From Coleofasciculus sp. LEGE 07092 (lineage in GTDB: Bacteria > Cyanobacteriota > Cyanobacteriia > Cyanobacteriales > Coleofasciculaceae): a stretch of DNA of 64,000 bases. Positions 1 through 45,946 of this stretch are shown here, one piece after another; within the stretch, counting starts at the first letter, position 1; each line of letters begins with the position of its first letter. Location of the stretch: NCBI RefSeq assembly GCF_015207375.1, contig NZ_JADEWY010000019.1:1-64000 (forward strand), in the 5' to 3' direction. The position numbers were made by a program, and so were the translations under genes. A model generated the notes under the pieces. That model had not been told where the DNA came from, did no database searches, and saw only the letters and a list, made by a program, of their open reading frames with translations.

Positions 1-91
1 CCCTTGTCCCCTTGTCCCCTTGTCTCCTTGTCCCCTTGTCTCCTTGTCTCCTTGTCCCCTTGTCCCCTTGTCCCCTTGTCTCCTTTTCCAA
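1..91. repeat. Octamer tandem array CCCCTTGT/CTCCTTGT
   Basis: About eleven copies of an 8-bp unit (CCCCTTGT or CTCCTTGT), starting at or before the window edge and ending in CTCCTTTTCC. It lies inside the glycosyltransferase-like frame on the minus strand, where it encodes cycles of GDKGTRGQ/GDKETRGQ. The same array occurs inside hypF at 44998-45079. Confidence 0.9.
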
Positions 92-4627: not shown

Positions 4628-7600
4628 ATGCAGCCGGAACAACAACAGCGAATCATGGGCTACTTCATTGAGGAGGCAAAAGACCACCTCAATACCATTG
4701 AGCAGGGTTTGCTAAGTCTGCAAAGCACCATGCAAGACACTGAAATGGCAAACGAACTCTTTCGTGCTGCCCATTCCGTCAAAGGTGGTGCTGCCATGTT
4801 AGGACTGGAGAGCATTCAGCAAACAGCCCATCGTCTAGAAGATTACTTCAAAATTCTCAAAGACTCACCCGTCCAGACCGACCAGCAGCTAGAATCCCTT
4901 TTTTTGCGGGTATTTGATACCCTTCAATCGCTGTTAGACCAACTCCAAGGACCTTTCGGCTTGACTGACGACACAGCCAAGACAATCATGTCAAATGCCG
5001 AGCCGATTTTTGAGCAACTCAGCCGTCATCTCAATCAACTGGTTCACAAAGACGGAGGAACTACCACCGCTACCGTCCGAGAGGCAAATGTCGCTGGCAG
5101 GCAATCCTCTGAATCGAGTGCTAACCCCTTACCAGTAACTTTTAAACGAGATGTTCTGGTGGAACTGCGAGAGATGTTACAGCTCTTTAAGCAGTCAGAC
5201 TCACCCCAACATCGCGCCGCTCTGCAAAACCACTGCGATCGCCTGCTTTCCCTCGGCAAGGAATGGGATTTGGCTGGTTGGGGCGAGTTACTCGAAACCG
5301 CAAAAGCAGCAATTGCCAATCCCCAAAATTCCTATCGCCTGCTTGCTAGTGTGACGATCAAAGAAATAAAACAGGCTCAGGAGTTAGTTCTATTAGGTCG
5401 CTCAGTTGAAATTGCCCCTAGTGAACAGCTTGAATCTCTAGCGCCAGCCTTAGCTGATATTGATGCGGCACCAGCACCCAATCCCTACGAGCAAGCACCT
5501 TCTACAGACACCAATACAGTGTCGGAAACGGACAGAACCTCTAGTAATGTATCTTCAAAAGGCGATCGCCTGAACATCTCAGACAACTATGTTAACGACA
5601 AAGAAACGTACATTATTCACGACTTTTACGGAGAAGATACTTTCATTCAACCAGAGACTACCCATGTTCAAGAAAACAGTTCCTCTGAGCCGAACCAAGG
5701 ATTCGATCAACTGTCAAATCCCTTTGCACCACCATCACCATTGTCTGACCAAAACGATCCAGAAGTTGGTTTAGTAGAACTAAACACGTTAGCCGATATT
5801 TTTGAAGGTCAAACCCCCGAGCTGGATCAAACCTGGCAAGAAGAAGAAATTATCAGTCTAGATGACGATCCCTTCTCAGACACTTCAGATGATCTATTTA
5901 ATTTAGACAACTCAAGTGATTTTTCTGATCTCCTCAGTGACGCAGAGAACCGCGATTTTTTTCAGGCAGAAACGTCAGCGAGTGACGGTTTATCCGAATC
6001 TCAAGCAAACCTAAATGATGAGTTTTCCGACCTACTCTTTGAATCGGATATATCAGACTCTTCTGTGAATTCAAGCTCTTCTACAGCCGATTTAAGCACC
6101 TTATTGGACGATAGCTTCTTAGAAGAAGACGAGGAAACAACACCGCCAGGAAATGATAGGGATTTAGACTTCTCCGCATCATCATTAGACTTCAGCAATC
6201 AAAATGATGACTTAGTAGACCTAGACTCGGCAGCAACAGATGCCTGGGATTTGTCTAATCCCTTTGAAGAAATGTCCTTTGACAGCGAAGAGTTGGATTT
6301 AGAATCGTTAGAGCAATCGGAACTTGATGCTGATTTTGAGTCCCTAGATAACTTTTTTGATACCGATTCAGTAACTCTTGATGATAGTGATAGTTCGGCA
6401 ATCATTAGCCCAAGAAACTCAGAAGACTCTTCTATCCTTGAGATGCCTGGACTAACCGATGAACTTGAAGCAAATCAAGAAGAAACCCTTGAAGAACAGC
6501 TAGATGATAGCGAAACTTTAGCTGAACCCGTGTCTGACTTATCAGAACCTTTATTCAATGAAGATGCACTAGAGATTCCGCCAGTTGCTGCCGAAGATTT
6601 AGAAGCCCTTTTCATCGAAGAAACAGAGGAAAGCCAAGCACCATCCGAGTTTAATTTAGAATCGGATTGGTTAACCGAGGAATCGGATTCCTCAGAATGG
6701 GATTTAGAGACAAACGACTTTCAAACTGAACCAGACGAGACGAGTGATTTATTTGAGTCTTGGGAAAGTGAGGCAACAGCACCGGAAGCTGTAGAAGATT
6801 TAGAAGGCTTGGCAGATTTCTTCACAGAAGAAACTTCAGAACCCCAACCCTCATCCGAGTTAGATTTAGAAACCGATTGGGACTTCAACTCCCAACCCTC
6901 AACTGAACCAGACGAAACAAGTGATTTGTTCGAGTCTTGGGAAAGTGAGGCAACGGCACCGGAAGCTGTAGAAGATTTAGAAGATTTCTTCACAGAAGAA
7001 GCTTCAGAACCCCAACTCTCATCCGAGTTAGATTTAGAAACCGATTGGGACTTCAACTCCCAACCCTCAACTGAACCAGACGAAACAAGTGATTTGTTCG
7101 AGTCTTGGGAAAGTGAGGCAACGGCACCGGAAGCTGTAGAAGATTTAGAAGATTTCTTCACAGAAGAAGCTTCAGAACCCCAACTCTCATCCGAGTTAGA
7201 TTTAGAAGCTGATTGGGACTTCGACTCCCAACCCTCAACTGAGCCAGACGAGACAAGTGATTTGTTCGAGTCTTGGGAAAGTGAGGCAACGGCACCGGAA
7301 GCTGTAGAAGATTTAGAAGATTTCTTCAGTAGTGAAGGAGTAACTGCTGAAGGTGATTTTTCTTTAGAAATTAACGAAGAAACTGACTGGGCTTTAGATA
7401 TTGATTTGGAGAGTAGCGATGAGTTTGAAGATTTAGAGGCAATGCTGGCATCGGAAACTCCTACCTTGCCTGCTGAATTCGATAGCATTGATGAGTTTGA
7501 AGATTTAGAGGCAATGCTGGAGTTGGACACTCCTGGTGCACCTGTAGCTTTTGGAGCAGTAGATAATGATGCATTTGAGGATCTTGAAGCGCTCTTAAGC

Positions 7601-16625: not shown

Positions 16626-17507
16626 TCAGGGAGTAATATTCAGTTCAAGGTTGTAAGCCTGCTCAACTGGTTGATTCCCCATATAAGTGGGTTCAAATCG
16701 CCACTCGGAAACAATCTGCTGTGCCAGTTGCTCTGCCTGCTCAGTACTGATGTTTCCAGATAAAACTTGAGTATAATCTGGCAGAGGTTCGGCTTGACCC
16801 GTCGTATCAATCAATACAACTACTTTTAAACGGATAGCCTGCTCAGGATTAAGTCCCAACTGCGTCAGATACTCCCTTGGAAATTCAGTTGTGTTCCCTG
16901 ACTTCAGTGTTGCCGGTTGGTCAGGAATATCCCGACTGCCATCAGTGAGGCTCAATCCGCCTAGGGCGACACCAAAAGATCCGCTGTCATCAGAACTGGG
17001 TGAAGTTGGTTCTGGCGATCGCTCCGACGATGGGTTGGGGGAAGAGTTAGATTTTGGCGATCGCTCCGACGATGGGTTGGGGGAAGAGTTAGATTTTGGC
17101 GATCGCTCCGACGATGGGTTGGGGGAAGACTTCGTTGCAGGTGACTGTCTGCCTGTTTCCTGAAGTTGAGAACGAGTTGAAGATACAGTAGAGGTAGGGG
17201 ACGGCTGAGGATTAATCGATTGGCTTGGGAAAGTTTGGGTGGTGCGATCGCTCGGTGCTGGTTGTCGGGGGGATGTCAACCCTGGAGAAAGCGCTCTGGC
17301 TTCGGGAGTAAAAGCAATCACATTGACGGGAATCAGAGTTTTGTTAGATCGCAATCCCTGGAAGCGTCCCATCAGCACTATACTCAGCACTAAAAATGCT
17401 AGTAGATGGATAAGACCAGAACCTAGGATCACAAAAGTCCACAGCGTGGGGGGATCGGAGTGATGCCGCTGGGGTATTTGGGAAGGAGCAGTTGGAGGTG
17501 TCATCAA
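16626..17507 (-). CDS. TonB-like energy transducer protein
   Basis: A 293-residue protein with TonB-like architecture. A membrane anchor (about residues 22-46, WTFVILGSGLIHLLAFLVLS) is followed by a Pro/Ser-rich periplasmic linker and a C-terminal TonB-like domain (about 200-292, RLKVVVLIDTTGQAEPLPDY ... IVSEWRFEPTYMGNQPVEQ). TonB couples the proton-motive force to outer-membrane receptors; cyanobacterial homologues often lack neighbouring ExbBD, as here. The linker contains three near-identical 14-residue units built on SSPNPSSERSPKSN. It may instead be a cyanobacterial TonB-like protein not engaged in transport. Confidence 0.7.
   Translation of the reverse strand: MMTPPTAPSQIPQRHHSDPPTLWTFVILGSGLIHLLAFLVLSIVLMGRFQGLRSNKTLIPVNVIAFTPEARALSPGLTSPRQPAPSDRTTQTFPSQSINPQPSPTSTVSSTRSQLQETGRQSPATKSSPNPSSERSPKSNSSPNPSSERSPKSNSSPNPSSERSPEPTSPSSDDSGSFGVALGGLSLTDGSRDIPDQPATLKSGNTTEFPREYLTQLGLNPEQAIRLKVVVLIDTTGQAEPLPDYTQVLSGNISTEQAEQLAQQIVSEWRFEPTYMGNQPVEQAYNLELNITP
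17014..17132. repeat. 42-bp coding tandem repeat containing HIP1
   Basis: Three copies start at 17014, 17056 and 17098 (period exactly 42 bp), each opening with GGCGATCGCTCCGACGATGG. The palindrome GCGATCGC is therefore tandemly multiplied in the TonB-like linker. Confidence 0.9.
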
Positions 17508-43453: not shown

Positions 43454-45946
43454 CTAAATTAACTGTGCTGCTGCAATAACTGCTTGCCCTAAAGATATCC
43501 CTCCATCATTGGGCGGTACTAACCGATGAGTCAGTACCTCAATTCCCATTGCTTCTAAGCGATTAGTAACTTGTGCGAGTAAAATACGGTTTTGAAATAC
43601 ACCTCCTGTAAGAACAACGCGATCGCTAACCGTTTGGGGACGGAGTTGATCAACTATGATAGCGATCGCACTCGCCAAACCGCTATGGAATTTAGCTCCT
43701 ATCTCTGCCTTTGAGACAGTTTGCTGCAAGTCATTCAGCAAGGCTTGCCACATCGGACGCGGTTCTAAAAAGGGAAGGAATTCCCCTCTACTCTCTAGAG
43801 TGCCAATTCCGAAGGGGTAAGGCACTACTTCTTCAACTTGATTTAACCTATCGGCATCAATAAGGGCTTCCATTTCAATTGCTGCTTGCCCCTCATAGCT
43901 GCATTCTTGCCGACAAATACCCAACGCCGCCGCCACCCCATCAAATAATCGCCCCGCCGAAGACGCTAGGGGAGAATTAATGCCTTTTTCAATTACCTGG
44001 TTGAGAAGCTGACGGGGTTTTTGTTCCAGAAACCTTACCAATTCTAAATCTCCGTACTGCTGTTGCAACTCTTCCCAGTCAAAGGCTGCCATCAATTGGG
44101 CGTAGGTATTCCGCCACGGTTGGTAAATTGCTTTTTCTCCACCGATCATTGTCACAGGTTTAAACGTTGCCAACCGTTTGAATCCCCGATAATCGGCTAA
44201 GAGAAATTCTCCCCCCCAAAGCGTTCCATTCTCCCCATACCCCAACCCATCCAGGGCAATACCCAAAACTGGGGGCGCATCGAGGGGAATACCATTTTCT
44301 GCCAGACAAGCAGCAATATGGGCATGATGATGCTGAATTTCCTGTAGAAATGTTGCATCCAACGTCTTGCCCAATTTAGTCGAGAGGTATTCAGGATGTT
44401 TATCAATGGCAATAGCAACAGGTTTATGCTTAAATAACCCCAAGTAAAGATTCAGCGTATCCCGATACGCACCAAAAGCAGCCGCATTTTCCAAATCCCC
44501 CAGATGTTGGGATAAAATCGCCTGCCCATCCCGCAGTAAGCAGAAAGTATTCTTCAATTCGCTACCCATCGCCAGAATATGAGGTACACTGTCAAACCCG
44601 GCGGGTAAACGAATTGGCGCAGGGGCATACCCACGGGCACGACGGAGAATCTGAATTTTGAATTTTGAATTTTGAATTTTGAATTTTGAATTGATAACTC
44701 GGACTACCGAATCATCAACTCGATTTACAATATCCCGGTTGTGCAATAGCAAATAATCGGCAATCTTCCCCAACTTGATACGAGCGTCCTGATTATCAAT
44801 ACATTGCGGTTCGTCAGACAGATTACCGCTAGTAAGGACAATGGGGCGATCCATCTGCTGTAGGATGAGATGGTGCAGGGGTGTATTGGGCAGCATGAAA
44901 CCGAGGGTTGTTTGTCCGGGTGCGACTGAGGTGGCAACAGATTTGGTAACGGATATAACGGATGAGTTAGATGATGTGGAATTGAAGTTATTCTTCCTTG
45001 TCCCCTTGTCTCCTTGTCCCCTTGTCTCCTTGTCCCCTTGTCCCCTTGTCCCTTTGTCCCCTTGTCCCCTTTTCTCCAACAACACAATCGGCGCTACTGG
45101 ACTTTGCAGCAATTCTCGTTCCTTCGGGTTCAGAGTGCAGTACTGTTCAATCACAGCTATATCTCGCGCCATTAATGCCAAAGGTTTGTGATATCGCTGC
45201 TTGCGCGATCGCAATTTTTGCACTGTCCTCTCGTTAGTAGCATCACAGGCTAAGTGAATACCCCCCAACCCTTTAATCGCTACAATCTCACCCTGTTGCA
45301 ATAGGATACAAACAGTATCCAACGGATCTGATGTATCAACAACTTGACCATTTGCTTGTTCTAACCATACCTGAGGACCACAAACCGGACAGGCAATCGG
45401 TTGGGCGTGAAAGCGGCGATTTTCGACATCGTGGTATTCCCTAGCGCAATCGGAACACATGACAAAGGCTGCCATGCTGGTATTAATTCGGTCATAGGGA
45501 ATAGACTGGATAATACTCAGGCGAGGACCACAATGGGTGCAGTTAGTAAAGGGATAGCGATACCACCGGGAACGGGAGTCAAAGGTTTCTGCTTGGCATT
45601 GGGGGCAGGTTGCTGCATCGGGGGCAATTTCGGTACTCACACTACCGCTTAGACTTTGAGCAATAACAAAATCATCAAAGGTACAGTCTCCTGGGTAGGG
45701 ACTTCTAGAAATGGTTTCAATTGATGCAAGAGGTGGACATTCCTTTTGCAGGCGTCGGACTAATTCTTCTATCGCTTCAGAATTACCACAAACTCGAATT
45801 AAAACCCCTTGACCATCATTACAGACATCTCCTGTGAGTTGGCAAGCTTTTGCCAAACGGTATACGGTAGGGCGGAACCCAACCCCTTGAACCGTACCGC
45901 GAACTCTAATTTCTTCTTGGCTAATTGTTGGTGAATGATTGTTCAT
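43454..45946 (-). CDS. hypF: Carbamoyltransferase HypF with in-frame repeat insertions
   Basis: An 830-residue enzyme that makes the carbamoyl group for HypE. Order: acylphosphatase domain (about residues 10-100, RGTVQGVGFRPTVYRLA), two zinc fingers (CPQCQAET, CTHCGPR, CSDCAREY, CPVCGP), YrdC-like domain (about 205-400, KGLGGIHLACDA) and Kae1-like domain (about 440-830, HHHAHIAACLAENG, VVLTGGVFQNRIL). Motifs appear intact. Two foreign segments interrupt it without breaking the frame: an octamer array plus 34-bp repeat (about residues 290-338) in the linker after VLLEKR and before VAPGQ, and a heptamer array (about 419-433). Length exceeds the usual 750-780 accordingly. Confidence 0.93.
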   Translation of the reverse strand: MNNHSPTISQEEIRVRGTVQGVGFRPTVYRLAKACQLTGDVCNDGQGVLIRVCGNSEAIEELVRRLQKECPPLASIETISRSPYPGDCTFDDFVIAQSLSGSVSTEIAPDAATCPQCQAETFDSRSRWYRYPFTNCTHCGPRLSIIQSIPYDRINTSMAAFVMCSDCAREYHDVENRRFHAQPIACPVCGPQVWLEQANGQVVDTSDPLDTVCILLQQGEIVAIKGLGGIHLACDATNERTVQKLRSRKQRYHKPLALMARDIAVIEQYCTLNPKERELLQSPVAPIVLLEKRGQGDKGTRGQGDKETRGQGDKGTRKNNFNSTSSNSSVISVTKSVATSVAPGQTTLGFMLPNTPLHHLILQQMDRPIVLTSGNLSDEPQCIDNQDARIKLGKIADYLLLHNRDIVNRVDDSVVRVINSKFKIQNSKFKIQILRRARGYAPAPIRLPAGFDSVPHILAMGSELKNTFCLLRDGQAILSQHLGDLENAAAFGAYRDTLNLYLGLFKHKPVAIAIDKHPEYLSTKLGKTLDATFLQEIQHHHAHIAACLAENGIPLDAPPVLGIALDGLGYGENGTLWGGEFLLADYRGFKRLATFKPVTMIGGEKAIYQPWRNTYAQLMAAFDWEELQQQYGDLELVRFLEQKPRQLLNQVIEKGINSPLASSAGRLFDGVAAALGICRQECSYEGQAAIEMEALIDADRLNQVEEVVPYPFGIGTLESRGEFLPFLEPRPMWQALLNDLQQTVSKAEIGAKFHSGLASAIAIIVDQLRPQTVSDRVVLTGGVFQNRILLAQVTNRLEAMGIEVLTHRLVPPNDGGISLGQAVIAAAQLI
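44649..44689. repeat. Heptamer array GAATTTT in hypF
   Basis: About six copies of GAATTTT. On the coding (minus) strand this reads KFKIQNS cycles with no stop; on the plus strand the array meets TGA. It sits between the YrdC-like and Kae1-like domains. Confidence 0.9.
44931..44964. repeat. 34-bp repeat inside hypF
   Basis: Coding copy of the repeat seen at 43401-43434 (two mismatches). It adjoins the octamer array through about 30 bp; both together form the first hypF insertion. Confidence 0.85.
44998..45079. repeat. Octamer array in hypF
   Basis: About ten copies of the CCCCTTGT/CTCCTTGT octamer seen at 1-91, ending in the same CCCCTTTTC-like tail. On the coding strand it gives GDKGTRGQ and GDKETRGQ cycles. 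Confidence 0.92.

Follow-up and report, generated by a model that had tools for sequence, protein, structure and literature searches.

The window analyzed here, 64,000 bases in length, comprises bases 1–64,000 of the 64,126-base contig C246, one of 296 contigs in a 6.71-Mb cyanobacterial draft genome (G000). The contig opens with a tandem array of CCCCTTGT/CTCCTTGT octamers (about 1–89), and a second octamer array lies within hypF (about 44994–45073, minus strand coding). The plus strand is the C-rich strand of both, and TRF assigns each a period of 8. All 11 three-unit octamer matches in the window fall inside these two arrays, compared with none in 100 dinucleotide shuffles, so both arrays are real. 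The family unit is CYCCTTGT on one strand and GGRGACAA on the other. A preliminary description of this DNA had stated that the unit lacks stop codons on either strand and that the array encodes one eight-residue peptide, GDKGTRGQ; translation of both strands confirms the first statement and yields a cycling GDKGTRGQ from the G-rich strand of the CCCCTTGT unit. The CTCCTTGT unit gives GDKETRRQ on the same strand. The C-rich strand encodes a hydrophobic peptide, PLVPLSPC, with a hydropathy of +1.1, compared with −2.2 for the G-rich-strand peptide. The minus strand, (GGGGACAA)n, provides at least four G tracts separated by short loops, some tracts being weakened by GGAG units, and so fits, as judged from its sequence, a putative G-quadruplex-type motif. 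The window also holds two tandem arrays with unit lengths divisible by three, at 6724–7328 (168-bp unit, 3.5 copies) and 17013–17129 (42-bp unit, 2.8 perfect copies).

The array at the contig end belongs to an ORF on the minus strand (1–1374, ATG at 1374) that is 3′-truncated by the contig end. Its product matches Pfam PMT_2 (E = 2.7e-8) and is a membrane glycosyltransferase of the mannosyltransferase type. At this open end, the array is translated as (GDKGTRGQ)n, in a loop that follows a transmembrane segment, and comparison with orthologues places the site within an internal loop. Because the ORF leaves the contig within the array, the exit frame cannot be read from the contig. The same gene carries a second in-frame insertion, at 457–690 (amino acids 229–306), containing palindromic CCCCCCTTGATTAGGGGGG-type repeats; parts of it match C163, C57, and C67 elsewhere in the genome, and alignments to relatives break there.

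The hypF gene (43454–45946, minus strand) is a single ORF of 830 amino acids in which every HypF domain is intact on either side of the array, confirming that the array is read through in frame. It comprises ∼10 units, degenerate ends counted, is interrupted, and encodes a GDKGTRGQ-type peptide in the loop following the APIVLL motif of the YrdC-like domain. The expectation that array length would itself preserve the frame needs amendment: the total length of the loop does so, but the array (∼80 bp) is not a multiple of three. Solved HypF structures lack the segment, with query residues 299–336 falling between residues 292 and 293, which are neighbors in the 3vth chain. A second non-triplet array occupies a separate loop of the same gene (44652–44692; TRF, 5.9 units). 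It consists of TGAATTT heptamers, a true 7-mer and the only TGAATTT array in the genome, and its minus-strand reading, KFKIQNS, is stop-free. In the hypF of another genome (L085, G027), a third HypF loop reads GSVGSVGSVG followed by PPHPPHPPHPP, a G-rich and then a C-rich repeat, in frame.

Genome-wide distribution and the composite repeat

Pattern searches combined with fetched regions indicate ∼45 octamer arrays dispersed through G000. Fetched flanks yielded 38 arrays with three or more units, a set that leaves out weaker arrays such as those on C60, C206, C252, and C295. Only about 6 of the ∼45 arrays touch genes, as against a coding density of 0.80 (∼80% of the window lies in ORFs of at least 150 amino acids). 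Arrays are thus strongly depleted in genes. Coding arrays are therefore no commoner than insertion at random would produce, the outcome that the preliminary description had named as refuting its reading, and the proposal that the octamer is protein-compatible wherever it lands does not hold. Arrays are entered by long ORFs reading their G-rich strand at hypF and the PMT-like gene, at a histidine kinase gene (C127), at ldpA (C221, an identification based on its own sequence and on orthologues), at the tail of an HlyD-type adaptor (C124), and at a large ORF without assigned function (C245). On the C-rich strand, long ORFs mostly begin right after the array, which therefore lies upstream of genes in that orientation.

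Many intergenic arrays form one arm of a dispersed composite, in which a G-rich arm, (GGGGAGCT)n, is followed by a core, AGTAACACCTCAAAAAT, and then by the C-rich octamer arm, (CYCCTTGT)n. The 21-nt core AGTAACACCTCAAAAATCTCC, which links the two arms, occurs in 40 copies in G000 when up to 3 mismatches are allowed, compared with 0 for a reversed-pattern control. Comparison of flanks found neither a G-rich arm nor a full core at the hypF array. Some coding arrays in other genomes (L159, L197, L203, and L205) do contain G-rich and then C-rich segments within one loop. A second core in G000, AGAAAATTCGGGTTTTCTAT, could form a hairpin.

Of the 38 recovered arrays, 24 lie no more than 100 bases from the end of a contig, and assemblies thus break at octamer repeats. 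Since the G-rich arm is also found at contig ends, they probably break inside the composite. In these contig-end arrays the edge is always 5′ of the C-rich strand, the side on which the composite carries its G-rich arm; this one-sidedness may reflect failure of sequencing on one strand of a G4-type repeat.

The abundance of a given unit is genome-specific. CYCCTTGT has 170 matches in G000 and 1 in G001, while GGAGACGC has 206 in G001 and 0 in G000, and the GGAGACGC type has 66 in G012. Units also differ between genomes at the coding sites. The HypF loop carries GGAGACGC-type repeats in G012 and G001 and GGGAGCAG in G003; the loop of the PMT-like protein carries GGAGACGC/GGAGAGGG-type repeats in G012 and G001 and GGCAGGA in G013; and the LdpA loop carries a GGAGACAAG-like repeat in G011. 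In the clearest case, the unit found in the sister loop is abundant in that same genome. The repeat site is thus retained among sister genomes, whereas its unit undergoes turnover. Distant orthologues of all three proteins lack the segment. For LdpA, the first eight residues of the orthologue query did not come from the genome; the result is drawn from the loop region, at the opposite end of the query. Length variability computed from relatives is nowhere higher than at the array site in HypF (0 of 744 positions more variable), the PMT-like protein (0 of 621), or LdpA (0 of 317), in rankings that include relatives carrying repeats of their own, which add to the measured variability.

Strand, frame, and a stop-bearing control in other genomes

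A search for the octamer pattern in a single genome from each species returned at least 113 loci, with 78 cyanobacterial loci among the matches listed. The named matches listed are mostly filamentous cyanobacteria, together with Chloroflexota, Planctomycetota, Acidobacteria, and others. Non-cyanobacterial arrays (L129, L130, L133, L178, L213, and others) occur in Caldilineaceae, Acidobacteria, Prevotella, Planctomycetes, and Chloroflexota, some of them within long ORFs. Because high-GC genomes yield spurious long ORFs, array-spanning ORFs were counted in cyanobacteria only.

Among the matches listed, the 78 cyanobacterial loci contain 81 octamer arrays, 63 of them internal. In 14 of these 63 the G-rich strand is spanned by a gene, again far below the coding density of 0.80. 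These 14 ORFs comprise twelve mechanical calls, a RimM-like ORF (L173, identified by sequence), and the ORF of a histidine kinase (L132). The sole gene read on the C-rich strand among the matches listed encodes a gamma-glutamyltranspeptidase (L159), giving a strand ratio of 14 to 1 (p = 0.001), a rule based on 15 genes called as mechanical ORFs. A Pfam scan of ten spanning proteins found that each has known domains flanking or spanning the array: a GH31 glucosidase, an HlyD protein, an ABC ATPase, a PEP synthase, a CBS/poly-A polymerase, a TPP enzyme, two histidine kinases, MenC, and the gamma-glutamyltranspeptidase. One HATPase_c loop carries this octamer in three histidine kinases, from G000 (C127), a Richelia MAG (L132), and a Nostocales strain (L212).

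The frame is kept in all ten testable cyanobacterial genes among the matches listed (at least 150 amino acids on each side), compared with one-third expected if the frame were unconstrained (p = 1.7e-5), and we found no frame-broken ORF pairs at octamer arrays in the cyanobacterial loci among those matches. Adjacent units are identical at a rate of 0.51 in coding arrays and 0.65 in non-coding arrays (p = 0.08); coding arrays are thus not purer.

As a stop-bearing control we used the heptamer TTGAATT, which carries TGA on one strand. In relatives it forms 66 internal arrays, of which 5 span genes, all on the stop-free strand (5 to 0), and no broken genes were found at any of the 66. Its coding fraction (5/66) is lower than that of the octamer (14/63 among the matches listed; p = 0.025), in samples drawn from different genomes. 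The comparison with a stop-encoding unit, put forward in the preliminary description, therefore gives a divided answer: the coding rate of the heptamer is moderately lower, but the heptamer also resides in genes and obeys the same open-strand rule. A stop-free second strand may thus help a little.

Persistence of non-triplet repeats in genes

Considered together, these data are most consistent with a model in which the octamers are dispersed repeats of the STRR type that spread at the DNA level and are filtered by selection into permissive loops; we regard this model as probable. The repeats would arise and spread through slippage or through inter-array copying or recombination, and purifying selection would then remove most arrays from genes. 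An array would persist in a gene where its site is a length-variable loop, where the G-rich strand is read to give a hydrophilic GDKGTRGQ-like peptide, and where total length keeps the frame, three conditions that comparison bears out. A stop-free read strand would be necessary without being the main determinant. At the level of sequence, our comparisons establish the depletion in genes, the strand rule, frame retention, loop placement, and the differences in unit at the same sites; loop position and peptide hydrophilicity are stronger constraints than freedom from stops. A preference for purine-rich mRNA, rather than peptide chemistry, could explain part of the strand rule. Permissive enzyme loops might further act as docking sites at which the dominant repeat of the host at the time keeps replacing the resident unit by recombination or copying, a form of concerted evolution in coding genes that we put forward as a tentative possibility.

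The simpler reading is that the octamer survives in genes because neither strand has a stop in any frame, so that it can land anywhere if the frame is kept. In its favor, the unit is indeed stop-free, arrays are read through in real genes with the frame retained, and the coding fraction is somewhat above that of the heptamer. As an explanation it is nonetheless unlikely: arrays are depleted in genes, the octamer hardly uses its stop-free second strand (one C-rich-strand gene among the matches listed), the arrays sit in variable loops every time where this was tested, and the stop-bearing heptamer follows the same strand rule. Selection for a function of the encoded peptide in each host protein would also account for a maintained frame, yet it is highly improbable given that the site is conserved in neither sequence nor length, that distant orthologues lack the segment, and that unrelated enzymes share the same peptide.

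A contingency switch is conceivable at hypF, where slippage by one octamer would shift the frame and turn hydrogenase maturation reversibly off. Such a role is possible in principle, since HypF is predicted to be truncated at 316–409 of its 830 residues when one or two units are gained or lost, and to return to frame with three; frameshifting by tandem repeats is well established as a switch in other organisms, such as Haemophilus (PMC2651432). We nevertheless consider phase variation very unlikely here. Repeat purity in coding arrays does not exceed that in non-coding arrays, the array in hypF contains interruptions, and the affected genes are mostly metabolic and signaling enzymes without a common theme. 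The arrays might instead be debris of a small mobile composite of G-rich arm, core, and C-rich arm that inserts in genes and intergenic DNA alike. The multicopy core between the two arms and the coding loops holding G-rich and then C-rich segments argue for such an element, whereas the hypF array has neither a G-rich arm nor a full core, and sister loops often carry different units rather than empty sites; on balance we think it somewhat doubtful. This reading concerns the origin of the arrays and is compatible with a selection filter acting afterward.

Under the favored model of spread followed by filtering, the fate of a repeat in bacterial genes is set by loop permissiveness and strand chemistry, not by stop codons alone. 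The arrays would then mark where enzymes such as HypF, LdpA, and histidine kinases tolerate insertions, and the occurrence of different genome-specific, non-triplet repeats at the same loop in sister genomes offers a testable system.

Relation to described repeats

Rickettsial palindromic elements are a known instance of a repeat residing in frame within unrelated genes; the likeness is one of description, the rickettsial element being palindromic and the array here tandem. The small dispersed repeats (SDR) of Nostoc punctiforme, which Elhai and colleagues are said to have described in 2008, and which PMC3116915 mentions, reportedly have a core of ∼20 nt embedded in tandem repeats. They are likewise comparable by description, the resemblance being to the 21-nt core and its 40 copies.

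The short tandemly repeated repetitive sequences (STRR) of filamentous cyanobacteria (Mazel et al., 1990, cited in PMC4692102 and PMC2670836) are dispersed, multicopy, non-triplet tandem units that, like the ∼45 octamer arrays, are mostly intergenic, and they are hairpin-prone (PMC2670836). The STRR unit is 7 nt, matching the TGAATTT array of hypF, whereas TRF assigns the octamer a unit of 8; for the octamer we measured the share of arrays inside genes, the strand that is read, and the placement in loops. The nearest described case is the GGGGA(C/T)T heptamer of Nostoc, which is 68% intergenic with a sizable intragenic part (PMC4692102). Like the octamer, it is G-rich, mainly intergenic, and of a putative four-tract G-quadruplex type, and its G strand tends to lie antisense upstream of genes (PMC4692102), as does that of the octamer. 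However, G-rich repeats are reported as under-represented on the coding strand of ORFs (PMC4692102), whereas the coding arrays of the octamer are nearly all G-sense.

Tandem repeats within the ORFs of Borgs also keep the frame and encode disordered or low-complexity segments, and their formation is highly genome-specific (PMC9879509); the octamer resembles them in each of these respects. In Borgs, every coding unit has a length divisible by three (PMC9879509). In contrast, the unit here is 8 (or 7), so that every gain or loss of a unit shifts the frame.
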